From contig JAGDCV010000083.1 of assembly GCA_017958365.1 (NCBI GenBank), positions 1 through 64,000 on the forward strand: DNA of 64,000 bases, given 5' to 3'. The DNA comes from Clostridiales bacterium. GTDB taxonomy: Bacteria; Bacillota; Clostridia; Saccharofermentanales; Saccharofermentanaceae. This document shows, one piece after another, positions 2,400-15,497 of this stretch. Numbering within the stretch: position 1 is the stretch's first letter; every line of letters begins with the position of its first letter. The notes beneath the pieces are model-generated. The model was not told the DNA's origin, made no database searches, and saw nothing but the letters and a program-made list of their open reading frames with translations. Both the position numbers and the translations under genes were made by a program.

Positions 2400-5227
2400 G
2401 AATTCTTACCACAGCAATTCTTATACTTCTTTCCGGATCCGCAAGGACAGGGATCATTTCTTCCAACCTTGTTCTTGTCTCTCTTTACAGGCTCCAATGT
2501 CTTTGCACTTTGTGCAGCACCCTGAACCTGCTTGGCCTCGGTAGGAATCGTGTTTCTCTGAGAAGCCGTTGCTCTGGCAGCAGCCTTAGCAAGAGGAGAA
2601 GACATCTGCTGTTCAGCAGTACCGTCACCGTTTGCCCCATCAGGTGCGTTTCTTACTTCAAAACGGCCTCTCATGAGAAGCTTAACGGAATCATCCTGGA
2701 TAGCTTCGTTCATCTCATCGAACATCTCTCCGCCTTCCATCTTGTACTCAACAACGGGATCATGCTGACCTACAGATCTCATTCTGATGGATGTCTGCAA
2801 CTGATCCATGGCATCGATATGATCCATCCACTTGGAATCTACTGTCATGAGAAGAATTGAACGCTCTGCCTGTCTGAATACTTCAGCACCTGCATGTTCT
2901 TCCTTAGCCTTAAGGCTCTCTACGGACTGCTCATAGATAGTATCGATAACAGTCTGCGCATCGGGAATATCCTTGTGCTCATCTTTAATATCAAGAACGA
3001 TCGGAAGATCACCGAATATCTCACCGAGTTTTGCACCTAATGAATATCTTTCACCGCTTGAGATAACACCGTCATTAGCAAATGCCATTACCTGTCTGTC
3101 AGCGACTCTCTGGATCATCTTGAGGAGTGTCTCATGCATATCCTCACCGTCGATAACCTTACGACGCTGTTCGTAAGTTATGGTACGCTGGATATTCATA
3201 ACATCGTCATACTCAAGGACAGTCTTACGTGAACCGAAGTGCAAGGCCTCGAGCTTCTTCTGGGAACTGTCAATGATCTTGGTAAGCATGCCGTTCTGGA
3301 TCTCCATGGTCTCTTCAACACCCAACGTGTTGTAAAGACGGTTAACCCTGTCACCACCGAAGATTCTCAACAACTCATCGTCAAGAGCAAGGAAGAACTT
3401 TGTACGTCCGGGGTCACCCTGACGGCCTGCACGACCCTTAAGCTGATTATCGATTCGTCTTGATTCATGTCTTTCAGTACCGACAATGAACAAACCTCCC
3501 AAAGCTCTTACTTCATCGGCTTCAGGCTTGATCTCTTCAGACTTCTTAGCATAGATCTCGGCATACTTCTTTCTTGCTTCAAGGATGATCTCGTCATCAG
3601 TCTCATTATGAGCAGTTGATGCTTCGATGAGATCCTCATCATATCCGAGCTTTCTCATTTCCTGCTTGGCAAGGAACTCAGGGTTACCACCAAGGAGAAT
3701 ATCGGTACCACGACCTGCCATGTTTGTAGCAATAGTTACTGTTCCCTTACGGCCTGCCTGAGCAACGATCTCAGCCTCTTTTCTGTGGTTCTTGGCGTTA
3801 AGAACGTTAGCCTGGATTCCGGCTTTTCTGAACAACTTATCAAGATACTCGGATCTGTCTACGTTAACAGTACCTACAAGGACAGGCTGACCTGTCTTAT
3901 GAGCTTCGATAACGGTCTTCAATACGGCATGGTACTTACCCTTCTGAGTCTTGAATACGGCATCGTTCTCATCGATTCTCTGAATTTCCTTATTTGTGGG
4001 GATCTGGATAACGTCAAGGTTATAGATCTGTCTGAACTCAGCTTCTTCCGTATAAGCAGTACCTGTCATACCGGAAAGCTTTGTATACATTCTGAAGTAG
4101 TTCTGGAAAGTGATCGTAGCAAGAGTCTTGTTCTCGTTAGCGATCTTAACTCCTTCCTTAGCCTCGATGGACTGATGGAGTCCGTCGCTGTATCTTCTAC
4201 CCGGCATTAGACGGCCGGTGAAGTCATCTACGATAACTACTTCGCCTTCGTCAGATACGATATACTGCTCATCCCTATGAAAATTACCGTGAGCCTTCAA
4301 AGCATTGTTGATGTAGTGCTGAAGATCGAAGTTCTCGGGATCTGATAAGTTCTCGATATTGAAGTACTTCTCAGCCTTCTTGATACCGTTTGCAGTAATA
4401 ACGGAAGTCTTAGCCTTCTCATCGATTACGTAATCAGCATCACCGACGATCTCATCCATGTCGATCTTGTCATCAGTCTCAACAACCGTATAAGGCTTGA
4501 GCATTCTTACAAAGGAATCAGCCTTCTGATATAGGTCTGAAGATGCTTCACCTCTACCTGAGATGATAAGAGGCGTTCTTGCCTCATCGATAAGGATGGA
4601 GTCAACCTCATCGACGATAGCGTAATTTAACTCTCTTTGTACAAGCTGAGACTTGGAAATGACCATGTTGTCACGAAGATAGTCAAAACCGAACTCATTG
4701 TTGGTTCCGTATACGATATCGCAGGCATACATGCCCTTTCTGTCCTTATTGGGAATATCGTGAATTATAAGACCGACTGTAAGTCCCAGGTACTTATAGA
4801 CCTTACCCATCCACTCAGAGTCACGCTTGGCAAGGTAATCATTAACAGTAACTACGTGAACGCCTTTGCCTGTAAGAGCATTGAGGTAAACAGGCATTGT
4901 AGCAACAAGAGTCTTACCTTCACCCGTCTTCATCTCAGCGATTCGGCCCTGATGAAGAACGATACCACCGATGATCTGTACCGGATAAGGCTTCAATCCG
5001 AGAACTCGCCATGCTGCTTCTCTTACCGTAGCAAATGCTTCGGGAAGGATATCATCCAATGTCTCACCGTTAGCAAGTCTATCCTTGAATTCGTTAGTCT
5101 TGGCACGAAGATCAGCATCAGATAGCTTCGAATACTCTTCATCAAGAGCAAGAACCTTCTTCTTGATCGGCTCGATCTTCTTGATCTCGTGGTCACTGTG
5201 TGTACCGAAAATTGCCTCTAAACCCAT
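2396..5227 (-). CDS. secA: Preprotein translocase ATPase SecA
   Basis: Motor ATPase that drives unfolded preproteins through SecYEG. The 943-residue protein has the Walker A motif GEGKT at about 102-106, DEVDSILIDEARTPL, the second RecA-like domain with TNMAGRGTDI, and a C-terminal SEC-C zinc-binding tail with the C-P-C-x8-C-C pattern in the last 24 residues. Length is in the normal bacterial range. The start overlaps the yerC stop by one base (TAATG) and has AAGGAGA upstream. A nearly identical SEC-C tail occurs in the unrelated protein at 16980-17501. Placement in an operon with nucleoside and methyl-cycle enzymes is not a classical secA neighbourhood. Confidence 0.97.
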   Translation of the reverse strand: MGLEAIFGTHSDHEIKKIEPIKKKVLALDEEYSKLSDADLRAKTNEFKDRLANGETLDDILPEAFATVREAAWRVLGLKPYPVQIIGGIVLHQGRIAEMKTGEGKTLVATMPVYLNALTGKGVHVVTVNDYLAKRDSEWMGKVYKYLGLTVGLIIHDIPNKDRKGMYACDIVYGTNNEFGFDYLRDNMVISKSQLVQRELNYAIVDEVDSILIDEARTPLIISGRGEASSDLYQKADSFVRMLKPYTVVETDDKIDMDEIVGDADYVIDEKAKTSVITANGIKKAEKYFNIENLSDPENFDLQHYINNALKAHGNFHRDEQYIVSDEGEVVIVDDFTGRLMPGRRYSDGLHQSIEAKEGVKIANENKTLATITFQNYFRMYTKLSGMTGTAYTEEAEFRQIYNLDVIQIPTNKEIQRIDENDAVFKTQKGKYHAVLKTVIEAHKTGQPVLVGTVNVDRSEYLDKLFRKAGIQANVLNAKNHRKEAEIVAQAGRKGTVTIATNMAGRGTDILLGGNPEFLAKQEMRKLGYDEDLIEASTAHNETDDEIILEARKKYAEIYAKKSEEIKPEADEVRALGGLFIVGTERHESRRIDNQLKGRAGRQGDPGRTKFFLALDDELLRIFGGDRVNRLYNTLGVEETMEIQNGMLTKIIDSSQKKLEALHFGSRKTVLEYDDVMNIQRTITYEQRRKVIDGEDMHETLLKMIQRVADRQVMAFANDGVISSGERYSLGAKLGEIFGDLPIVLDIKDEHKDIPDAQTVIDTIYEQSVESLKAKEEHAGAEVFRQAERSILLMTVDSKWMDHIDAMDQLQTSIRMRSVGQHDPVVEYKMEGGEMFDEMNEAIQDDSVKLLMRGRFEVRNAPDGANGDGTAEQQMSSPLAKAAARATASQRNTIPTEAKQVQGAAQSAKTLEPVKRDKNKVGRNDPCPCGSGKKYKNCCGKNS

Positions 5228-5613
5228 TATTCTTTATCTCCTTTGAGTCTTCTGAGAGCGGTTCTGTATCCGCCGTCAGGATTGTTATAACAAGCTTTAA
5301 CACGCGAAATGGTGGTAGAACTTACTTTGGTTGCGTTCCTTCCCTTGCCTTTACGGGATTCTCTTTCCTTGCTTCCGGCTTCTTTATGAGTTCCGTCTTT
5401 ATCGTGAGCAAGAGTGTTTATTATCTCCTCATAGCTTTTGCCTTCATCAATGAGTTCAAGGATCTGCCATCTGTGAAGCATGGAACACAATTCGTTACGC
5501 GAACAAAGATCCTCGAAGAACATGTGAAGTTCTTCAGGGGTCTTAAGCGTCAGTATTGCTTCATAAAGGCTATCCAAAGCCGTTCTTTCTTCTTTATCGA
5601 ATTCCATCATCAT
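5227..5613 (-). CDS. TrpR/YerC-YecD family DNA-binding protein with a charged insertion
   Basis: A 128-residue relative of the Firmicutes YerC/YecD proteins, which share the Trp-repressor helix-turn-helix fold. Residues 10-65 (through RWQILELIDEGKSYEEI) and the C-terminal VSSTTISRVKACYNNPDGGY match the family well. Between them, roughly residues 70-94, lies a Lys/Arg/Glu/Gly-rich stretch (DKDGTHKEAGSKERESRKGK and following) exactly where the turn of the helix-turn-helix should be. Family members are usually about 95-105 residues. The gene overlaps the small membrane gene upstream (ATGA) and secA downstream (TAATG). Its targets are unknown; the insertion may alter or add nucleic-acid contacts. 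Confidence 0.8.
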   Translation of the reverse strand: MMMEFDKEERTALDSLYEAILTLKTPEELHMFFEDLCSRNELCSMLHRWQILELIDEGKSYEEIINTLAHDKDGTHKEAGSKERESRKGKGRNATKVSSTTISRVKACYNNPDGGYRTALRRLKGDKE

Positions 5614-5852
5614 TCAATAAGTGCGAGAGAAGAGTCTATCAGGTCATTTACATAACCTGCAACAAACAAATATACGATCAGGGCAGCAAGTACAACCAGA
5701 AACAGCGCCAGACATATACGTTTGATGATAAGTTCCTTCTTAGCCTTGCGAAGGACGTCACCTACGGATTCCCTGCCGCTGATGCTGCTGCTTACGGAAG
5801 TAGCAGCCATAGAAGGTCTTCTTACATTACCGTTCATCGCCAGAAAGCACAC
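5610..5852 (-). CDS. Small single-pass membrane protein, unknown function
   Basis: I do not recognise this 80-residue protein. Residues 1-35 are polar and Ser-rich. A Lys/Arg patch (about 37-45) precedes one strong hydrophobic segment (about 47-67), followed by a short acidic tail. The positive-inside rule puts the N terminus in the cytoplasm. The first codon could be GTG at 5852 or the ATG five codons later (MNGNVRR); an AAGGAAAGG stretch lies just upstream of the GTG. Its stop overlaps the start of the TrpR-like gene by four bases, so it appears to be the first gene of the secA operon. Confidence 0.6.
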   Translation of the reverse strand: MCFLAMNGNVRRPSMAATSVSSSISGRESVGDVLRKAKKELIIKRICLALFLVVLAALIVYLFVAGYVNDLIDSSLALIE

Positions 5853-5876
5853 CTTTCCTTATAAAATATCCATACA

Positions 5877-5905
5877 ATGATAACCTAACTTGCCGATTTA
5901 AACAA
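5877..5905 (-). promoter_or_regulatory. Candidate promoter of the membrane protein-yerC-secA-punA-ahcY operon
   Basis: On the minus strand TTGTTT (5900-5905) is followed by 17 bases and TATCAT (5877-5882), in an A/T-rich 70-base gap that has no gene. The -35 box matches four of six consensus positions and the -10 five of six. It sits about 25 bases before the first start codon. Confidence 0.45.
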
Positions 5906-5921
5906 ATAATTATTATTTATA

Positions 5922-6908
5922 TTAAGAAGATAAGCCGTATTCTTCCACCTGAAGATTGATCCCGTGTATTGCGGCATACCCTTCCATCGAGTATACGGAC
6001 GCTCTTAATGACTCAGGAGAATCCTCTGGAATTACTACCACCAAAGTCCTTACTCTGATGCTGTCACCGTATATTACATATCTTTCACCGCTTATCTGAA
6101 CGTCAGCACCGTCAAAATCCGCAAGTGAATCAATCTGTTCAGTTAATCTTACAACAACAGCCCCCGGAATACTGTAAGTAGGCTTATTAAGATCGATGCT
6201 TACTATCGAACCTACTTCACCTGCTCTATAGTAATTGACGCAGGGAAATGTCGGAGGCAGATTCGCTCCGTACCTCTCGGCAAAAGCTCTTCCTCTGGTA
6301 AAATTATTTTGATGCCAGATATCGTCTGATAATTCCTGTCCGTCCTCACCTTCAGACAAAAACAGTTCAAAGTCCCCATAAAACGGTATCGATGACACTA
6401 TCTGCCTCTGCATCGGTCCGATAATGGTATTTATGCTGTAAACCACATAGACTTCGATGTAACTATCCCTTATGTCAAAATCAACATAAATATCATCAGG
6501 CCCCCAGAAGTATGAGCCGTTATATTCGTTAAACTCGGTAGCAATGTCATCCGTAAAACGGTCACCGAGCATGAGATTCAATGCTCCTGCCCTAAGGGCT
6601 CCCGAAGTAAGCATATCCGCCCCTGCTATAACCGAACCTGCATTTACAACGGCATCATCAACACGGGCTTCGTCAGGAAGCGCATTAACAAGCGTAGATA
6701 TCGTATCTGACGCAACTATAGAGAACGGCATCAGATGCGAAAAGTCTTCACACGTCTTGTTTACGGCCCTTTGCATAAGGATATCTGTTCGAAGAAAGAC
6801 AGTAACACTTATTATCGCAGTAAGAAAAACAAGCACCAGAGAGAATGATATTGCCGTCTCGAGTGATACACTCCCCCTTCTATCCGTATAATTCGTAAAC
6901 CGCTTCAT
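5922..6908 (-). CDS. TadE/TadG-like pseudopilin, large
   Basis: A 328-residue protein with a short basic N terminus (MKRFTNYTDRRGS) followed by SVSLETAISFSLVLVFLTAIISV. This is the arrangement of TadE-like minor pilins: a Glu five residues into a single hydrophobic helix (about 14-37), then a long extracellular region. The rest is rich in Asp, Tyr and Ser with no recognised enzyme motif. Its start overlaps the upstream pilin-like gene by 29 bases. By family analogy it would be a minor component of a type IVc (Tad) pilus or a related surface machine, but no other Tad gene is in the window. Confidence 0.65.
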   Translation of the reverse strand: MKRFTNYTDRRGSVSLETAISFSLVLVFLTAIISVTVFLRTDILMQRAVNKTCEDFSHLMPFSIVASDTISTLVNALPDEARVDDAVVNAGSVIAGADMLTSGALRAGALNLMLGDRFTDDIATEFNEYNGSYFWGPDDIYVDFDIRDSYIEVYVVYSINTIIGPMQRQIVSSIPFYGDFELFLSEGEDGQELSDDIWHQNNFTRGRAFAERYGANLPPTFPCVNYYRAGEVGSIVSIDLNKPTYSIPGAVVVRLTEQIDSLADFDGADVQISGERYVIYGDSIRVRTLVVVIPEDSPESLRASVYSMEGYAAIHGINLQVEEYGLSS

Positions 6909-8220
6909 ATGAAATCACACTCCCGTAATACGATGTCTCCGTTTCGATCCCGGTAACGTAATCCGGGAAATCCCTGTTTATGATCTCAACCATTCTCGTA
7001 AGAAGCTGGGAATCAGGAACGAAAACCATGTACAGCGTCAGAAAATCCCTGTATCCCATTGTCAGGATCTGCGCCTCTTCAACTTCGATTATCGTTATCT
7101 CGTCTCCTGCAAGGATAGTCGACAGATCTCCTGTCGACTGCAATTCAGACCATATTGCAGCAATTACAGCCGTATATACTTCAGGAGGCAAAGGAACGGA
7201 ACCTAATGAGAGTGCCGTTACGACAGCAGACAGTATCTCACCTGCGGATTGGATCAATTCCATGGTCTCAGGATCGGTCAGGTTACTGACAAGATTCTTT
7301 ACAAAACAGAAACCGTAGATATAAAGGTCAGTAAGTGCACATCCGCCTATCCCCTCAACCCCGGTCAGTATGTATTCGGCATCAGGAATATTGTCACCGT
7401 GAAAACAGGAAAACTCCGTTCCGTTAAGAGTTGTATCATCAGGCAGGAAACAATCGAAGTTATTGGCCGCATAATCCATGAGGCAAACATGCTGTCCTAT
7501 CCCCTCATTAAATGAAGTTCCGATATCATACAAGCCCGATTGAAATTCGATGAGATTAAGGACAAATCCCATATCAGTCGGATCGAAGCCTTCTCCGACA
7601 TCCGGGTGATCATTGTTAAGAGCACCCAAGCCGTTCATCAGATCCCAGAAGAAACTCAATTCGGATGATGATTCATCAAACCCTAAAGTATTTACGGCGA
7701 ATGATACGGCTTCGACGATCTGGGAACCTCCGTCAAGTATCCTTCCGATAACACCCGAAGCGGGACTGGATGTGAATTGACGAAGCGATGAATATGCACC
7801 GGTAGCATCCAATCCTTCAATAAGCGCATTAATCTGATCAGATAACCTGTTTACGGCAATGCCCGTTGCCCTATACGAATAGAATACCGCAACGGCTCTT
7901 TCAAGGTCATCGGTATCAAAACTGTATAGACCGCTTACATACATCACATCACCGGACTCATATCCGTTAGCCGCAAGAATGCTTTCAAACAATTCAGAAT
8001 CGATCTCATTACTGTTAAAGGCATATATCCCATATGCTTTAAACAAAGTGCGGTCATAACTTGCAAGATAGATCTCGGTTTGCTCTTTAAGGGCTCTTGA
8101 ATAAGTAAGTCTTCTGTCGAGATCTGCAACATATGCCATATAAGTCGTTTCAACTAATATCAAAGCAGACAGGACTATGGCCAGAAAGAGAGTCGTGGTA
8201 CCTTTCTTATTCTTCCTCAT
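6880..8220 (-). CDS. Tad-pilus-associated TadG-like membrane-anchored protein
   Basis: A 446-residue protein beginning MRKNKKGTTTLFLAIVLSALILVETTYMAYVADLDRRL: a basic start, then one hydrophobic helix (about 9-28) carrying Glu at 24, the architecture of TadG/TadE-like proteins. Residues 30-446 are predicted outside the membrane and include a hydrophobic, Gly/Ala-rich stretch near 325-360. It contains no recognisable catalytic motif. It overlaps the upstream gene by 14 bases and the downstream gene by 29, so the three are surely co-translated. Naming is by N-terminal architecture only. Confidence 0.55.
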   Translation of the reverse strand: MRKNKKGTTTLFLAIVLSALILVETTYMAYVADLDRRLTYSRALKEQTEIYLASYDRTLFKAYGIYAFNSNEIDSELFESILAANGYESGDVMYVSGLYSFDTDDLERAVAVFYSYRATGIAVNRLSDQINALIEGLDATGAYSSLRQFTSSPASGVIGRILDGGSQIVEAVSFAVNTLGFDESSSELSFFWDLMNGLGALNNDHPDVGEGFDPTDMGFVLNLIEFQSGLYDIGTSFNEGIGQHVCLMDYAANNFDCFLPDDTTLNGTEFSCFHGDNIPDAEYILTGVEGIGGCALTDLYIYGFCFVKNLVSNLTDPETMELIQSAGEILSAVVTALSLGSVPLPPEVYTAVIAAIWSELQSTGDLSTILAGDEITIIEVEEAQILTMGYRDFLTLYMVFVPDSQLLTRMVEIINRDFPDYVTGIETETSYYGSVISYEAVYELYG

Positions 8221-8455
8221 CCGGCACCTCCCCGAGCAAAGCTCCGTAAATCATCCGGTAGTTCTCGGAAATACCCGTAAAAAACGTATTCAGACCTTCG
8301 GGAGACATATCATCTTCTTCCCGTGACAGAACGTCTTCCACTGCATTTTGAGCCTCGGCCAAAGTGTCATTGCATAAGTGTGCAGGCAGTACAATAAGTC
8401 CGCTTAACACAAACATTACCGCTGTAAAAACTACAGCCGTTTCCAATGTACTCAT
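8207..8455 (-). CDS. Small TadE-like pseudopilin
   Basis: An 82-residue protein starting MSTLETAVVFTAVMFVLSGLIVLPAHLC, which has the pilin-like Glu-5 followed by a hydrophobic helix; the remainder is acidic. I chose the ATG at 8455 because GGGGG lies eight bases upstream. A longer reading frame to 8533 would run back through the terminator hairpin and lacks an SD. It is the first gene of the three-pilin set. Its SD lies at the base of a strong terminator hairpin (8459-8499), so expression is probably controlled there. Confidence 0.6.
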   Translation of the reverse strand: MSTLETAVVFTAVMFVLSGLIVLPAHLCNDTLAEAQNAVEDVLSREEDDMSPEGLNTFFTGISENYRMIYGALLGEVPDEEE

Positions 8456-8458
8456 AAT

Positions 8459-8499
8459 AAAAACCCCCGTATTCCATAGAATGACTATAGAATACAGGG
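8459..8499 (-). terminator. Intrinsic terminator between pheT and the pilin genes, overlapping an SD
   Basis: On the minus strand a 15-bp stem pairs 8485-8499 with 8465-8479 around a five-base loop, followed by one G and TTTTT (8459-8463). Two of the pairs are G-U on the minus strand and would be C-A mismatches on the plus strand, which shows the hairpin acts in RNA of the pheST direction. The G-rich 3' arm is also the only SD-like sequence for the ATG at 8455. Confidence 0.85.
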
Positions 8500-8556
8500 T
8501 TTTGACTTCGATTTTTTCGACAATTGGATACAATTATCGACAAAAAACGACAACCC

Positions 8557-10983
8557 TCATCTTAAATGCGCGTCATAAGTCTTCTCGAGTTTGGACTGTA
8601 TGCTGTCGTACGGAGCCTTAATATCGTCATCTGTGAGCGTTCTGGAGTCATCTCTGAATATGAGCGATACTGCAACCGACTTCTTGTTCTCACCGAGCTT
8701 GTTATCCTCATAGACATCAAAGAATTCAACTTCCTTAAGAAGCTTACCGCCTGATGACTTACATGTTCTTAAGATATCGCCGACTGCAACATCCTTATCA
8801 ACTACGACCGCAACGTCACGGGAGATTCCCGGGAACTTAGGTATCTGCTTATATACCCTCTCAGACTTAGAAGCATCAATGAACGCCTTAGCTTCGATCT
8901 CGAAGAAGCAAGCCTTCTCGGGAGATTCGAATCCTTCGGCAACAGAAGGATGGATGATGCCGATAACACCGCAGGTCTTGTTATTAACAACTACGGAAGC
9001 TGTTCTTCCGGGATGGAAAGAAGGATTATCAGTCAAAGGTTCAAATGCCAACGATCTGATACCCAATACCTTTGCAAGTTCTTCAATGATTCCCCTTACG
9101 TGATAGAAGATCGAAGAACTGTCACTTAATGTGTTGTCGTAGTAGAAACCGCTGAATACCGGTCTTTCCTCAGGAAGCAACGTCGGATCCTCATCAGGGA
9201 TATAGACATAAGCAAGTTCAAATACTTTCGCGGAAAGAACGCCTCTGTTTGAGTTTCTTGCAGCAATTCTTAACATCGAAGGAAGCATGGTCGTACGAAG
9301 CACGGATGAATCATCACCCAGAGGATTAGATATCTTAACCTGCTTTCTCAAACTGCAGTCTTCAGGAACCTTAAGAAGATCAAGGTCTGAAGGGCTCTCG
9401 AACGAATATGTGATAGCCTCATAGAATCCGCAGGAAACGAGAGTGTCACGGATCTTCTCCGTAATGCTCTGCTCACGGGTTCTGCCGCCGAGTGTAGTCT
9501 CCTTACCTGAAAGAAGAGTAGGTTCGATCTTGTTATAACCGAAGAATCTTGCTATCTCTTCAGAGATATCAGCTTCACCTTCAAGGTCAGGACGGAAAGT
9601 AGGAGGTATTATCATCTCCTTATCGCCTTCCTTTACCAACTCGCATCCGAGATCCGTTAATGTATCTCTCATGAACTGCTCGGAAGCTTCGATACCGATG
9701 AAATTGTTTATCCAGTCAGGTCTGAACTCGATATGCTTAACTTCACGCTTGGTAGGATATACATCGATAAAACCCTTGCTTACCTTACCGCAGCCTAACA
9801 ACTCAACAAGTTCACATGCACGGTCCAATGCCCTTAAAGCATTCTCGGGATCCAAACCCTTCTCATATCTGGATGAAGCCTCAGTACGAAGACCGTTCTT
9901 GATAGCAGTCTTTCTAACGCTTACGCCGTTAAATGTCGCAGATTCAAACAATATGCTGTTGGTTGTCTCAAGGACTTCGGAATTCTCACCGCCCATTACA
10001 CCTGCAATGGCACAGACTTTCTCCTCATCTGCGATAACAAGTGTATCACCGTCAAGGATATGCTCGTTACCATCAAGTGTAACGGTCTTCTCGCCTTCTT
10101 TTGCTTTTCGAACAATGATGTGATTGTTCTTAAGGTAGTCGAGGTCAAACGCATGCATGGGCTGACCTAACTCGAGGCATACATAGTTAGTGATATCAAC
10201 GATGTTGTTGATGGATCTCATTCCTGCGGCAACAAGTTTCTCTACCATCCAGTCAGGTGAAGGACCGATCTTAACGTCCTCAACAGTTCTTGCGCAGTAA
10301 CGGTAGCAAAGATCGGGGGCCTCGATGTCTACTTTCGCTACCTCGGAAGTCTCGAGAGACCCCTCCTGCTTAAGTGAAGGAGCCACGGGCTTAAACTTCT
10401 TGCCGAGAGTAACGGCAGCCTCACGTCCAAGACCTTCAATGGAGAAGCAGTCCGGACGGTTGGATGTGATCTCGAAGTCAACGGTAACAAAAGAATCAAC
10501 GTTTAAGAACTCACGCAGGTCAGTACCGAGCGCGGGAGGGTTATCAAGCTTTGAAAGGTCCCAAAGACCATACTCATCAGCACCGGGCTTACCTGCCGCA
10601 ACAGGTCCCAGTTCCTCACCGGAGCAGCACATGCCGAAGCTTTCAACGCCTCTGATCTTACCCTTCTTTATCTCAAACTCGGGAAGAACGGCACCTACAG
10701 CAGCAATGGGACAAAGCATGCCCTCATAAACATTAGGTGCACCGCAGACGATCTGAACGCTATGTCCGATCTCGTCTCTACCAAAGTCAACCTTAAGGAT
10801 ATGAAGGTGATCGGAATCGGGATGATCCTCAACACTTAAGATCTTGCCGGCATATACACCGGAAAGCTTATAGTCGATTACCTCTTCAACCTTGGATCCA
10901 GTAAGTGTCATCTGATCCGCAAGTTCTTTTACGGATACATCTATATCAGTGAAATCTTTTAACCAAATAACAGGTGCTTTCAT
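8557..10983 (-). CDS. pheT: Phenylalanyl-tRNA synthetase beta subunit
   Basis: Large subunit of the (alpha-beta)2 synthetase that charges tRNA-Phe in the cytosol. The 808-residue protein has the expected order: an EMAP/tRNA-binding domain (about 40-155), the B3/4 editing domain, the B5 domain (about 400-475), the catalytic-like core, and a C-terminal ferredoxin-fold anticodon-binding domain (about 715-808, starting KFPGISRDVAVVV). AAGGAGGAG precedes the ATG and the gap to pheS is 13 bases. Length is normal for the family. Confidence 0.96.
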   Translation of the reverse strand: MKAPVIWLKDFTDIDVSVKELADQMTLTGSKVEEVIDYKLSGVYAGKILSVEDHPDSDHLHILKVDFGRDEIGHSVQIVCGAPNVYEGMLCPIAAVGAVLPEFEIKKGKIRGVESFGMCCSGEELGPVAAGKPGADEYGLWDLSKLDNPPALGTDLREFLNVDSFVTVDFEITSNRPDCFSIEGLGREAAVTLGKKFKPVAPSLKQEGSLETSEVAKVDIEAPDLCYRYCARTVEDVKIGPSPDWMVEKLVAAGMRSINNIVDITNYVCLELGQPMHAFDLDYLKNNHIIVRKAKEGEKTVTLDGNEHILDGDTLVIADEEKVCAIAGVMGGENSEVLETTNSILFESATFNGVSVRKTAIKNGLRTEASSRYEKGLDPENALRALDRACELVELLGCGKVSKGFIDVYPTKREVKHIEFRPDWINNFIGIEASEQFMRDTLTDLGCELVKEGDKEMIIPPTFRPDLEGEADISEEIARFFGYNKIEPTLLSGKETTLGGRTREQSITEKIRDTLVSCGFYEAITYSFESPSDLDLLKVPEDCSLRKQVKISNPLGDDSSVLRTTMLPSMLRIAARNSNRGVLSAKVFELAYVYIPDEDPTLLPEERPVFSGFYYDNTLSDSSSIFYHVRGIIEELAKVLGIRSLAFEPLTDNPSFHPGRTASVVVNNKTCGVIGIIHPSVAEGFESPEKACFFEIEAKAFIDASKSERVYKQIPKFPGISRDVAVVVDKDVAVGDILRTCKSSGGKLLKEVEFFDVYEDNKLGENKKSVAVSLIFRDDSRTLTDDDIKAPYDSIQSKLEKTYDAHLR

Positions 10984-10996
10984 TCAAATCTCCTCC

Positions 10997-12043
10997 TTAC
11001 TTGAACTGCTTTAAGAAACGCACATCGTTCTCATAAAGGAGTCTGATGTCATCAATACCGTATCTGCCCATTGCCGTTCTCTCTACGCCGATACCAAAGG
11101 CAAATCCGCTGTAGACGGAAGAATCAATGCCGCAGTTCTCAAGGACCTCGGGATGAACCATGCCTGCACCGAGAACCTCGATCCAGCCCTCGCCCTTACA
11201 GACGTTACAGCCGGAACCTCCGCACTTCCAGCAGGTAAGGTCAACCTCAACTGAGGGCTCCGTGAACGGGAAATGATGAGGACGAAGTCTGATATCCGTC
11301 TTCTCACCGAAGAGCTTCTTTGCAAAAAGCCTTAAGGAACCAACGAGGTCACCCATTGTAACGCCCTTATCAACAACCAGACCTTCGATCTGGTGGAATA
11401 CGGGTGAGTGAGTTGCATCAAGCGTATCCTGTCTGTAAACCTTACCCGGGCATACAACCTTTATCGGAGGCTTTCCGCCGTTCTTCGTAAGTTCTTCCAT
11501 GATACGGATCTGCATACCGGAAGTCTGTGTTCTTAATAGAATGTTATCGTTAATGTAGAAAGTATCCTGAGTATCTCTTGCAGGATGTCCCTTGGGGATC
11601 CTTAACAACTCAAAGTTGTACTTATCGTATTCAACCTCGGGGCCTTCACCTATGCTGTAGCCCAAACCTAAAAAGATATCGCATATCTCATTTATCGCCA
11701 TGTTAAGAGGATGTCTTGCACCGCAGCCTTCATAGTGAGTAGGCAAAGTAACATCGATTACTTCCCTCTTAAGCTTGCGGGCATTCTCCATTGCCTTCAT
11801 CTTGGCCTGGTTCTGAGCGAAGACTTCCTCCATCTTGGCACGCACTTCGTTGACCATCTTACCTGCCTCAGGTCTTTCCTCAGGCTTAAGGCTTCCCATG
11901 TTACGAAGAACGCCGGTAAGCTTACCTTTCTTACCGAAGAACTCTACTCTTAATTTCTCTATATCAGCTGAATTCTGGATCTCTTTGATCTTTTTCTCGA
12001 ATTCTTCACGCGTCTTATTCAAGCTTTCTTTAAGATCGCTCAT
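10997..12043 (-). CDS. pheS: Phenylalanyl-tRNA synthetase alpha subunit
   Basis: Catalytic subunit of PheRS. It shows an N-terminal coiled-coil (about 5-90) and the class II motifs, including [64 protein letters not shown], the CxxC...C cluster before [13 protein letters not shown], and the motif 3 [15 protein letters not shown]. The ATG at 12043 has GAGGAGG seven bases upstream; a TTG two codons earlier would overlap that SD. The mature protein is 348 residues. The leader is only about 50 bases, so the T-box riboswitch common upstream of Firmicutes pheST is absent. Confidence 0.96.
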
Positions 12044-12079
12044 AAACAAGCCTCCTCAAAATCTCACATTAACTTACAA

Positions 12080-12108
12080 AATATAGCACAAAGGCCTTAT
12101 AAATTAAA
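12080..12108 (-). promoter_or_regulatory. Candidate pheST promoter (extended -10)
   Basis: The minus strand has TGC-TATATT, an extended -10 at 12080-12085, with a weak TTTAAT 17 bases upstream (12103-12108). The -35 region lies across the stop of the metallo-hydrolase gene. It would give a leader of about 30 bases before pheS. Confidence 0.4.
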
Positions 12109-12702
12109 GAATGGATTATTGAGGAACTCTTTGTTAAGAATACTTGAGGGACCGTGACCGGGATAAATGATGATATCCGAGGATAACTTCTTCAAAACAC
12201 CTATGGATTCCATCATCTTGGCTTCTTCACCGCCTTTAAGGTCAGTTCTTCCGATGGAACCTGCAAAGAGCATGTCTCCCGTAAACATCAGCTTTTGCTC
12301 CCCCTGCTCGAAAAGATAGCATACGCTGCCCTTCGAGTGCCCGGGAGTATGGATTACGCTAAATCCGTCAAGCTTTAAAGTCTCCACCGCAAGAGGACGC
12401 GTTTTGTACTCGCATCTTTCAAAGAAATCATGGGAACTGTTATATGAAGGGTCTTCAAAGCATATAAAGTCATCCGAGGAACAATAAATCTTAGCTTCAG
12501 GAAACCTCTGGGCCCATTGATCTACGGCATAAATATGGTCAAAATGCCCGTGAGTAATGAGAATATAGTCTATCTTTCCGGGTAAATCATCTTCAATAAC
12601 ATGGGGCGAGACGGAAGGATCTATCAAAAAACACCCCGAATCTGCACTTAAAAAGTACATATTCGAGGATAAAGGTCCGTAAGGATAGGTCTTTACGATC
12701 AT
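12097..12702 (-). CDS. Metallo-beta-lactamase fold hydrolase (glyoxalase II-like)
   Basis: A 201-residue soluble protein with the metal-binding motif THGHFDH at about residues 50-56, a further His in HTPGHSKGSVCY, the Asp of TGDMLF, and the C-terminal YPGHG. This is the full set for a two-metal MBL hydrolase of the YqgX/glyoxalase II-like group. The substrate cannot be assigned from sequence. The ATG shares a base with the stop of the methylglyoxal-synthase-like gene upstream (TGATG), so the two are coupled. A thioester or detoxification role linked to methylglyoxal is an inference from context only. Confidence 0.8.
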   Translation of the reverse strand: MIVKTYPYGPLSSNMYFLSADSGCFLIDPSVSPHVIEDDLPGKIDYILITHGHFDHIYAVDQWAQRFPEAKIYCSSDDFICFEDPSYNSSHDFFERCEYKTRPLAVETLKLDGFSVIHTPGHSKGSVCYLFEQGEQKLMFTGDMLFAGSIGRTDLKGGEEAKMMESIGVLKKLSSDIIIYPGHGPSSILNKEFLNNPFFNL

Positions 12703-13106
12703 CAGGAAACCTTAGTCTCTTTAAGCCAGTTCCTGTAATCAAGATCTCCCCTGTCAACAGCAAGGACTAAGATCTCAGCCGTAGCAAGGTTTGTAGCATA
12801 CGGAATATTATTCATGTCACAAGTCTTCAAAAGATCCGAAGGAACCTCGGAATCCTCTGAAGCGGCGTCGCGCAGATAAATAACACAATCGATCTCATCA
12901 AACTCGGCTCTTGCAGCAAGCTGCTCAATGCCGCCAAGATAATCGACATTAAGACCGGACACATCAATATCCACAGCCTGCTTAAGATACTTGGCCGTGC
13001 TGTATACCGATATCAATTGATGCTTTGTAAGTAAAGTTTTGTAAGCGATACAGAAATTAACAAGAAGCTCTGTTTTACGGTTGTCAGCCATCAGAACTAT
13101 CTTCAT
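12702..13106 (-). CDS. Methylglyoxal synthase-like protein, divergent
   Basis: A 134-residue protein that aligns along its whole length with the MgsA/MGS-like fold: MKIVLMADNRK at the start, LGGIEQLAA in the middle, DCVIYLRD before the loop, and NNIPYATNLATAEIL near the end. Known MgsA converts dihydroxyacetone phosphate to methylglyoxal. Here the phosphate-binding TGTTG is replaced by YSTAKY (about 35-40), and the SGPxGGD segment by DYLGGIE (about 55-61). The initial His-Asp is ADN. An Asp remains in YLRDA. I therefore call it MGS-like without claiming the enzyme activity. SD is GGAGG; its own promoter lies at 13138-13166. Confidence 0.65.
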   Translation of the reverse strand: MKIVLMADNRKTELLVNFCIAYKTLLTKHQLISVYSTAKYLKQAVDIDVSGLNVDYLGGIEQLAARAEFDEIDCVIYLRDAASEDSEVPSDLLKTCDMNNIPYATNLATAEILVLAVDRGDLDYRNWLKETKVS

Positions 13107-13137
13107 AAGTAAATTTCCTCCATTAAAAACTATTACT

Positions 13138-13166
13138 ATTGTACAAAAACAGGCTTAAAAATTCAA
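13138..13166 (-). promoter_or_regulatory. Promoter of the MGS-like/metallo-hydrolase pair
   Basis: TTGAAT (13161-13166), 17 bases, TACAAT (13138-13143) on the minus strand, followed about 30 bases later by GGAGG and the start of the MGS-like gene. It lies in the 99-base gap after mrdA; no convincing terminator for mrdA is visible there. Confidence 0.6.
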
Positions 13167-13205
13167 TGATTTATTGTTAAAAACAATCAAAAAGGCTTAT
13201 AACGA

Positions 13206-15497
13206 TTATCCTTCTTCGACCGGAAGTTCAGCGAGCAAAGCATCCAGATCATTACCTGTAATGGGGATGCTCTCGAACATCTCATCAGCCATTGAAGGTG
13301 CAACGTTAAAGTATTCGGACAGAAGTGTCTGCGCGATAACGGCAGTTGATGATCCCCACTCACCTCTCTCTACAACGAGAGCGATCGCAATCTGCGGGTT
13401 CTCGGCAGGAGCGTAGCATACAAACAAACCGTTACTGTACTCTTTTCGAATCTCCTCATAACCTGTCTCAGCCGTACCGGTCTTACAAACCACGTCTATC
13501 GGGAAGTTGGCGAAGATATTACTTGCGGTACCGTCCCACATTGAAGTACCGGTTACAACGCATCTCATAGACTGGCGGACAGCCTCAATGTTCGGTTCAC
13601 TGATGTTAAGAGGCATGGACTGCGTCTGACCTTCATAAAGAACGGTACCGTCAGAAGCTGTAACATTATCTATTACATAAGGTGTAACCAGCTGATTTGT
13701 TGCTATGCCTGCCGTATATCTGCAAAGCTGCATGATGGTAAAGCAGTTATCGAACTGTCCGATGGCAGACTGTGCCGTATCAGCCGGGAACCATGTACGG
13801 TCATACTCATTCTCGTGAAGCAATATCTTTGTCTCACGGCTCGCCCTGATGCCTCTGATCTCACCGGGAAGATCGATTCCGGTATATTCGCCAAGACCCA
13901 ATCTCTCACCCATTGCATCAATGTTATCGATTCCGGTATCAACGCCCAATCTCATGAAGTAGATATTACAGGATGTTGCCATTGCAGAATTAAGGTCAAG
14001 CGGTCCGTGTCCCGTCGTCGGGAACTCGAGACAGCGGAAAGGCCAGCCGCCGATATCAATAGGAGAATCACAGGGATACCACGTGGAACCCGGAGAGATG
14101 ACTCCGTTCTCTAATGCGGCAAGCGCAGTACACATCTTAAAAGTGGATCCCGGAGCATACTGTGACATGATGGCTCTGTTCCAAAGAGGCATGTCTTCAG
14201 CAGTAATATCCTCATACTCGCCGATACCAAGATAGTATTGCAACTGCTCCTCAGCCTGTGCATCACCATACATCGACAAAACAAAGTCATTAGGGTCAAA
14301 GTTAGGATACGAACCCATTGCAAGAACGGCACCCGTATTAACATCCATGACGACAAACGCTCCGGCGTTAGCCGTCTTATAACCTGATTGCTCAATGATC
14401 TCCGCTCTCATCGCATCTTCGATATATGTCTTCAAAGCTTCGATGCCTACACGTTGAAGATCAGTGTCTATCGTTAACTGGACCGTAGCTCCGCTTTGGG
14501 CCGGCATTCCGTAGTCTGACGGGAAAAATACACCTTCAGGACCTTCTTCAGTCCAAATGTTGTATGTAGATATTCCGGAACTGCCGTGAAGATATCTTTC
14601 CATCTGGGATTCGACGCCTGACTGACCTACAAGGTCATCATTCGAATAACCGTACTGGGACAGCGTTACAAGCGACTCCTGGGATACTCTTCCGACATAA
14701 CCTACAACATGACTCGACAACTGTGCCGCAGGAGTATAAGTCCTTCGGTATGTCTTGCCCGTTATGATTCCCATATAGTGGTAGTTTTGCTCAGTAAGCA
14801 AAGTAACGAGTTCATCAGGCACATCGGTAGCAATCTCAACCGGAGTACCATTATAGAATGCCCAGTAATCCTTAAAAATCTGGAATCTGATCCTTATGAT
14901 CCTGTATGCTTCTTCCTCAGAATAACTGTTATCGATGTTAAAAAGCATTCTTAAGTAAAGATAGAAAACCTGGGGATCAGTCTTAACGTAATCATCAGAA
15001 TAAGTAACGATAATGCCCTCAGTATAGTCTTCAAGATCGAACAGGTTATGGTCCGTCTGCCAAAGCCTTATCTCCTCTTCATCTTTAAGAAATCTGAAAG
15101 GTTCAATGGCAAAATAGTCATCAAGATCAGACTCGGTAATGCAGTTATACTGATCAAACAGATAACTTAACTCAAGACACATGGCGTTAAGATCATAATC
15201 CGACATGTAAGCATATGCGATCATTACGGTATTTACTTCACGCGAAGATGCAAGAACAATCCCGTTGGCATCAATGATGTCACCTCTGGGAGCCGCTACA
15301 ACATACTGCCTCGATACGCCTTCCGAAGAAGCTGATATCGTTCTCTGGTATCCGGAAAACTGCAAGGAGGCTGTCATAAAAAGGATTACGGATCCGAAGA
15401 CGCAGAAAACCAGACCTAATATAAAGAATCTGTTTCTGAACAGTTCAATGACAGAAGAGAAGAACGACTCTTGTTTATGATTTACATTATCAGCCAA
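13206..15497 (-). CDS. mrdA: Penicillin-binding protein 2, elongation transpeptidase
   Basis: Class B PBP that cross-links peptidoglycan during cell elongation. The 763-residue protein has a cytoplasmic start, a transmembrane helix at about 22-43, the dimerisation/pedestal region beginning at RGDIIDANG (71-79), then the transpeptidase domain with STFK at 451-454, SCN at 509-511 and KTGT at 672-675. The three active-site motifs are all intact. Its start overlaps mreD by 16 bases, and gene order mreC-mreD-mrdA is the classical elongation cluster. The extra length relative to many PBP2 proteins lies in the acidic N-terminal half (about 100-250). Confidence 0.93.
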   Translation of the reverse strand: MADNVNHKQESFFSSVIELFRNRFFILGLVFCVFGSVILFMTASLQFSGYQRTISASSEGVSRQYVVAAPRGDIIDANGIVLASSREVNTVMIAYAYMSDYDLNAMCLELSYLFDQYNCITESDLDDYFAIEPFRFLKDEEEIRLWQTDHNLFDLEDYTEGIIVTYSDDYVKTDPQVFYLYLRMLFNIDNSYSEEEAYRIIRIRFQIFKDYWAFYNGTPVEIATDVPDELVTLLTEQNYHYMGIITGKTYRRTYTPAAQLSSHVVGYVGRVSQESLVTLSQYGYSNDDLVGQSGVESQMERYLHGSSGISTYNIWTEEGPEGVFFPSDYGMPAQSGATVQLTIDTDLQRVGIEALKTYIEDAMRAEIIEQSGYKTANAGAFVVMDVNTGAVLAMGSYPNFDPNDFVLSMYGDAQAEEQLQYYLGIGEYEDITAEDMPLWNRAIMSQYAPGSTFKMCTALAALENGVISPGSTWYPCDSPIDIGGWPFRCLEFPTTGHGPLDLNSAMATSCNIYFMRLGVDTGIDNIDAMGERLGLGEYTGIDLPGEIRGIRASRETKILLHENEYDRTWFPADTAQSAIGQFDNCFTIMQLCRYTAGIATNQLVTPYVIDNVTASDGTVLYEGQTQSMPLNISEPNIEAVRQSMRCVVTGTSMWDGTASNIFANFPIDVVCKTGTAETGYEEIRKEYSNGLFVCYAPAENPQIAIALVVERGEWGSSTAVIAQTLLSEYFNVAPSMADEMFESIPITGNDLDALLAELPVEEG

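Follow-up and report, generated by a model that had tools for sequence, protein, structure and literature searches.

In the transposase gene of IS10 and in the lysozyme gene e of phage T4, transcripts that arrive from outside fold so that the ribosome binding site is hidden, and the genes' own or late transcripts, which begin within the fold, are translated. We know of no terminator function in either of these leaders. A further case is sigG (spoIIIG) of Bacillus subtilis, which lies downstream of spoIIGA-sigE. Its large hairpin has been proposed to prevent translation of RNA reading through from there, and mRNA started at the gene's own promoter is described as unable to form it (Mearls et al. 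2018, PMC5942855). Other studies report that the Spo0A box has the core TGTCGAA, of which Spo0A contacts the bases G2, C4 and G5 (PMC3485338), and that tad genes are required for natural transformation in Micrococcus luteus (PMC4322843); in Liberibacter, tad pili have been associated with DNA uptake (PMC8513845).

Here we describe the junction between pheT and a pilin-like operon in a 64-kb window, by which we mean the whole stretch of 64,000 nucleotides that was analysed, and its counterparts in the genus Saccharofermentans, the relatives including rumen and gut MAGs and the strains KHP2, YRB3002 and YAD3003. We consider it probable that this segment combines a promoter with an insulator, and that the pilin promoter belongs to a competence regulon under Spo0A-like control.

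The junction between pheT and the pilin-like operon

The features of the junction, in the order in which they would be transcribed, are as follows.

8557-10983, minus strand: pheT, co-directional and upstream, the presumed source of read-through (ORF with its stop at 8557).
8518-8553, minus strand: four TTGTCG-like boxes with a 10-bp period, resembling a Spo0A-box operator, at 8553-8548, 8543-8538, 8533-8528 (degenerate, TTGTAT) and 8523-8518.
8489-8496, minus strand: putative extended -10, TG plus TATTCT (TGTATTCT), within the hairpin's 5' arm, recognised from motif phasing across loci.
8465-8499, minus strand: hairpin with 5' arm 8499-8485, loop 8484-8480 and 3' arm 8479-8465, from folding and covariation.
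8464-8468, minus strand: SD-like GGGGG, 8 bases 5' of the ATG, with four of its five G paired with the 5' arm.
8459-8463, minus strand: U-tract of the putative terminator (TTTTT in the sequence), doubling as the spacer from SD to ATG.
8207-8455, minus strand: pilin-like ORF of 82 aa with a hydrophobic N-terminus and the motif M(G)STLE (ORF and homologue alignment).
6880-8220, minus strand: second gene, a DUF5702 protein (PF18960, 26.3 bits against a cut-off of 26).
5922-6908, minus strand: third gene, a TadE-like protein (PF07811, 17 bits, below the cut-off of 22.9).

The start of the pilin-like ORF at ATG 8455 is supported by 42 homologues, in which M1 and a Glu a few residues on are invariant. 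The earlier sequence-only reading of the window had called this ORF the first pilin gene, which is plausible; the 82-aa product itself gave no Pfam match and no NCBIfam family above its cut-off, and the DUF5702 and TadE-like genes come next. The ORF was found in 31 of the 59 relatives searched, all of them of the same genus, and the DUF5702 gene in 82 of 85 genomes of the genus. The TadE-like protein also matches, below threshold, a CDI-toxin nuclease-like domain (25.6 of 27 bits, E 1.6e-5).

At the junction, the minus-strand arm 8499-8485 (CCCTGTATTCTATAG) can pair with 8479-8465 (CTATGGAATACGGGG) around the loop 8484-8480. The stem comprises 15 pairs, with six G-C pairs plus two U-G pairs that are possible in the minus-strand transcript only, and the 3' arm is followed by G8464, TTTTT (8463-8459), ATT and the ATG (8455-8453). 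The folding energy of the 101-nt hairpin segment was -30.1 kcal/mol, compared with -17.2 +/- 3.0 for shuffles (z -4.36), and none of 200 shuffles was as low. Sequence and fold thus confirm that the hairpin is real and that it has the 15-bp stem, the G-U pairs specific to the minus strand and the GGGGG-TTTTT-ATT-ATG ending first described for it; the SD-like bases had been placed in or just after the 3' arm, and four of the five G of the GGGGG run do lie inside that arm. The strength of the hairpin is not singular by itself, since two others among the 56 starts of gene-like ORFs (at least 120 aa) in the window carry an equally strong hairpin just 5' of the start; both resemble ordinary terminators of the gene before them. 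The junction hairpin has the make-up of an intrinsic terminator, a GC-rich stem with a U-tract behind it where a transcription unit ends. Among described RNA families, riboswitches and T-boxes included, an Rfam search of 4000-14000 gave only a sub-threshold match to SNORD35 (22.9 of 36 bits), away from the junction.

The first TTGTCG box begins 3 bases after pheT. At least one TTGTCG was present in the 100 bases before position -40 at 66 of the 77 loci with data, mostly in arrays with a 10-bp period. An 11-bp period (six of 59 genomes, allowing up to one mismatch) was also considered and was rejected after a recount, which gave 10 bp. Measured from the first base of the last exact box, the motif TGTAnnnT was found at a distance of 27, 28 or 38 bases in 45 of 67 loci; shuffles gave 0.36 such loci on average and 2 at most, and the other 22 loci had the motif at none of these distances. 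The sequence-only reading had seen no clear promoter between the hairpin and the ATG. The promoter appears instead to span the hairpin, with the boxes at 8553-8518 and the extended -10 at 8496-8489 in a phasing shared by these 45 of the 67 loci. A simple sigma-70 scan listed no site near the pilin start, because the promoter here, with its extended -10, lacks a -35. Since the extended -10 lies inside the 5' arm, transcription should begin in the loop, and the usual spacing from -10 to start puts the predicted start in the window at or near A8482.

A predicted box regulon and a candidate Spo0A-like regulator

Two boxes at 10-bp spacing gave 595 matches in 59 genomes of the genus, compared with 32 for the reversed pattern. 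Com proteins and YifB/ComM have functions in natural transformation. In the genome of the window (G000), which has 13 exact box-pair matches at 11 places, the genes behind boxes include recA, comEC, yifB/comM and the tad assembly operon with its TadA family ATPase. Boxes in G029 precede comEC, yifB/comM, the tad operon and the pilin operon, while those in G001 precede a comEA-like gene (SLBB and helix-hairpin-helix), yifB/comM, a UPF0102 gene, the tad operon, a comEC-like frame and the pilin operon. A common operator thus lies 5' of genes for DNA uptake and processing in G000, G029 and G001, from which we infer that the boxes define a natural-competence regulon and that the pilus may serve in DNA uptake.

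Several other genes were also found behind boxes. Uncharacterized proteins of about 250-300 aa, some of them alike, occur at L080 and L084 (G000), at L252, L255, L264, L268 and L275 (G029) and at L349 and L355 (G001), with no Pfam match among those searched. A protein of 148-178 aa is present behind boxes in three species (L083, L279, L352), and the two members searched had no Pfam match. A gene of the PD-(D/E)XK transposase family (Rpn-like) was identified by Pfam at L065:1591-2394 in G000, and a similar one by eye at L272 in G029. The comEC-like gene in G001 (L345) is split into two separate frames of 96 and 378 aa, perhaps by a frameshift. Finally, the sequence AATCCCA occurs about 40 bases after the first box at six of the 11 distinct array places in G000 (L065, L077, L078, L081, L083, L084) and is absent at the pilin promoter.

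The hairpin was also considered as a general part of this regulon, and this was rejected. None of the 17 other box-array promoters scored in G000 and G029 had a hairpin at z -3.5 or lower, whereas the pilin promoter reached -4.7 in G029, and -5.7 at the locus of the window in the comparison of loci. The hairpin therefore belongs to the junction between pheT and the pilin genes rather than to the regulon.

The Pfam family PF08769 (Spo0A_C) matched one small protein in 41 of the 59 genomes, above the cut-off in 30, G000 not being among these. With a profile built from eight such Spo0A-like proteins, the protein was present in 56 of the 59 genomes and in all of 26 further ones, and in the genome of the window it is located at G000:C81:2338-2856. 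The regulator alignment (A4) leaves out eight of the 36 chosen proteins, which were missed by the start finder. The Spo0A-like reading in L305 (G095) has an in-frame stop, possibly indicative of a broken gene or an assembly error.

When the profile was compared with solved structures, only Spo0A matched below E 0.1 (1fc3, 5.9e-6; 1lq1, 1.1e-5). A model of the G000 protein (pLDDT 82, pTM 0.60) had Spo0A as each of its first seven Foldseek matches, with probabilities of 0.99-1.00 and E values of 0.06-0.24, so that profile and model both point to the C-terminal DNA-binding fold of Spo0A. No phosphoreceiver was recognised in the protein, which is 185 aa long and without a Pfam match, and the N-terminal part of the model has two strands and two helices rather than a five-fold alpha-beta receiver. 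The operator is of the Spo0A type as well, in that the boxes (TTGTCG plus A or another base) carry all three of the bases contacted by Spo0A.

We also examined the residue beside the conserved Arg of the recognition helix, which by our own count we take to be Glu213 of Spo0A. Among 82 proteins it is Glu in 71, Val in six, Ser in three, Ala in one and Lys in one. For the 77 with box data, Glu occurred with TTGTCG in 63 cases and without it in three, while another residue occurred with TTGTCG in three and without it in eight. The residue was then forecast from the boxes in 26 genomes: Glu was correct in all 19 with the usual boxes and data, and non-Glu was correct in three of four (G100, G087, G096), G107 being wrong.

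A tentative alternative, though one to be taken seriously, leaves the promoter and insulator as proposed but has another protein read the boxes and gives the Spo0A-like protein some other role, its covariation with the boxes then reflecting shared ancestry. Its range would fit this, as an order-wide profile (28 sequences) found the protein in 141 of 148 genomes while the pilin ORF, among the 59 relatives searched, is confined to this genus; so would G006 and G068, where the profile search detected no regulator despite 18 and 28 box pairs. The Val and Ser variants make up one clade each, the Val clade having boxes of the TTTCGTA type, so that the co-change of residue and box represents about two events, and there are exceptions in both directions, the regulator of the window's genome having Lys yet TTGTCG boxes and that of G107 having Glu yet TTGTGTG boxes. 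Against another reader stand the agreement with the published core at the three contacted bases, the structural matches, which were to Spo0A only, and the forecasts, correct for three of the four odd residues and all 19 Glu although made beforehand. On balance, a receiver-less Spo0A-like protein probably controls the boxes.

The hairpin and separate terminators among relatives

For the comparison of loci, regions 5' of the pilin-like ORF were taken from 81 genomes, of which 80 were used; G108, in which the contig begins within the gene, and L174, which has a GTG start, are outside the 80-locus set. Hairpins were considered strong at an energy of -20 or lower and a z of -3.5 or lower. The stem alignment (A3) contains 23 loci, namely 22 above this cut-off and L009, which falls below it and was included with its SD AGGAGG paired with CTCCT; L017 is above the cut-off and was kept out, having a separate terminator.

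In these 23 related loci, 94.2% of the cells of a 12-pair stem were paired, compared with 83.1% in shuffles and at most 64.6% when the partners were slid. Double-sided changes were seen in 7 of the 12 pairs and 29 cells, whereas shuffles gave 3.5 and 9.9. For four of five measures none of 500 shuffles was as high, and for the fifth 7 of 500 were, counts that are not probabilities since the loci are related. RNAalifold recovered the same stem from the alignment unaided. Conservation by compensatory changes, which had been suggested as a check of the stem, is thus found in relatives, with 7 of 12 pairs covarying in 23 loci as expected of a stem of the sigG type, and because of this covariation the hairpin is more than chance. 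The comparison supports a conserved RNA stem that would sequester the SD and carry the U-tract.

A PheT homologue is encoded 5' of the pilin-like ORF at 61 of the 80 loci. At L014-L018, L021, L022 and L029 its identity to the PheT of the window is about 31-34%, versus 58-85% elsewhere, as though the genus held two types of PheT. Using an intrinsic-terminator scan from pheT to the promoter, we classified the 61 pheT loci as having the hairpin only (22), a terminator only (36), both (one, L017) or neither (two). A strong hairpin was present at 22 of the 24 pheT loci without a separate terminator versus 1 of the 37 with one (Fisher p 2.7e-13, counting the 61 loci as independent and ignoring kinship). 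The corresponding numbers for all 80 loci were 22, 48, one and nine. Mapped onto a 77-genome tree, the presence or absence of the hairpin requires six changes, at least three of them on supported branches, and an independent-pairs test of hairpin versus terminator had too few pairs to reach significance. The probability that the SD is paired did not by itself tell the hairpin loci apart from the others, because AGGAGG can pair with many sequences, and energy and z were used instead.

The sequence-only reading had named intact pilin genes without the hairpin as an observation that would count against it. Such relatives exist, as 57 of the 80 loci have no strong hairpin, most of them with a terminator 5' of the boxes, and the hairpin is therefore an insulator in some species and not a general need of pilin genes. 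The proposal that read-through is blocked at both transcription and translation fared better and seems to be the best reading, because the hairpin is almost confined to loci where pheT has no other terminator.

We compared folds of read-through and own transcripts at the 22 hairpin loci, in all of which the predicted start lies 3' of the 5' arm. As in the sigG type, the SD lies within a stem that would be restricted to upstream-derived transcripts, given the inferred start. For read-through RNA the median probability that the G-run of the SD is unpaired was 0.00, rising to 0.45 for the predicted own transcript; the values for the locus of the window were 0.19 and 0.74. At L003 it was 0.00 in both, and relief of the SD in the own transcript is thus clear for most of the predictions, not for all.

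These observations suggest the following mechanism. Transcripts reading through from pheST would fold the 15-bp hairpin, which together with the U-tract would act as the pheST terminator, and those that escape termination would be translated poorly, their SD being held within the 3' arm. The pilin operon would have its own promoter, at which an activator binds the tandem TTGTCG boxes and the extended -10 is provided by the 5' arm. RNA polymerase would begin in the loop (about 8482), giving an mRNA without the 5' arm, in which the hairpin therefore could not form and the SD would be freer. The boxes would place this promoter in a natural-transformation regulon with comEC, yifB/comM, recA and the tad assembly operon, and with comEA in a relative.

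The hairpin might also be no more than the intrinsic terminator of pheST, its overlap with SD and promoter being a by-product of compact spacing with no role in translation. A stem followed by a U-tract fits a terminator, and covariation is equally expected of a plain terminator stem. Moreover, the hairpin loci, which have no other terminator, are richer in U just 5' of the ATG (median 6 U in the last nine bases versus 3 at the others, p 3.7e-10), and the distance from pheT to ATG is short, 97-147 bases at the 22 hairpin-only loci. However, the SD stays in the stem even where it has changed: in L009, L021 and L170, C-G pairs at SD positions are replaced by U-A with pairing kept, and the SD there is GGAGG or GGGAG instead of GGGGG. 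Furthermore, 36 of the 38 pheT loci without a strong hairpin have their terminator 5' of the boxes, with the SD outside it. We therefore regard a terminator without a translational role as rather unlikely.

An attenuator or riboregulator without a promoter of its own, with pilin expression relying on pheST read-through and an antiterminator or RNA-opening factor as the sequence-only reading had envisaged, would accord with the hidden SD in read-through RNA and the empty sigma-70 scan, but is highly improbable given that phased boxes and an extended -10 are conserved across the hairpin, that the same boxes precede other operons without pheT, that pilin genes are kept in relatives where a strong terminator stands ahead of the boxes, and that an Rfam search of 4000-14000 gave no family above its gathering score. 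Antitermination would be needless for a pilin operon with its own promoter and a start predicted in the loop.

Returning to the combined promoter and insulator, its fullest version describes a naturally competent Saccharofermentans with uptake by a Tad pilus, an order-wide, receiver-less Spo0A relative as master regulator of competence that works through box arrays phased at 10 bp, a pilin promoter folded into the pheST terminator such that only the mRNA started by the regulator is translatable, and co-change of regulator and boxes in at least two clades; to this whole we would assign an even chance. The design would allow a tightly controlled operon to sit directly behind a housekeeping one, and would be compact, in that one hairpin ends the housekeeping transcript, silences its leakage and spares a second promoter that starts inside the hairpin. 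This reading also predicts, for Clostridia of rumen and gut, a regulon of natural-transformation genes whose candidate regulator and readable operator would open gene transfer in these communities to testing and, should the prediction hold, might provide a genetic handle on the genus.

Comparison with described systems

The IS10 and T4 gene e leaders differ from the junction in that they belong to mobile-element or phage genes, with no tandem-operator regulon. In the literature searched, a limited library in which absence is not proof, we found no description of the present arrangement and no paper combining Saccharofermentans with Spo0A; among the matches listed for Saccharofermentans and competence, the papers were on other subjects, judging by their titles.

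The candidate regulon resembles Spo0A-activated promoters in the contacted bases G2, C4 and G5 and in a last box that would lie just upstream of the -35 position. Unlike those promoters, it usually has four boxes at a strict 10-bp period and competence and pilus genes as targets, and its candidate regulator has no recognisable receiver domain. The tad genes are shared with the Tad/Flp competence pili of Micrococcus luteus (PMC4322843); the present case offers co-regulation of tad and com genes as read from sequence, the genus belongs to the Clostridia, and regulator and operator are of another kind.

The class of mechanism is already known from IS10, T4 gene e and sigG, for the last of which a hairpin that silences upstream read-through has been proposed, one that the gene's own transcripts are unable to form. 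Compared with sigG, the junction hairpin is followed by a U-tract and apparently takes the place of the upstream operon's terminator, the -10 lies inside its 5' arm, the promoter resembles the Spo0A-box type, and the gene is part of a predicted pilus and competence regulon; the support comes from covariation rather than genetics. What is new is that one hairpin combines terminator and SD block, that the -10 falls within its arm, that the covariation is wide, and that the promoter has its place in a competence regulon predicted to be under Spo0A-like control.
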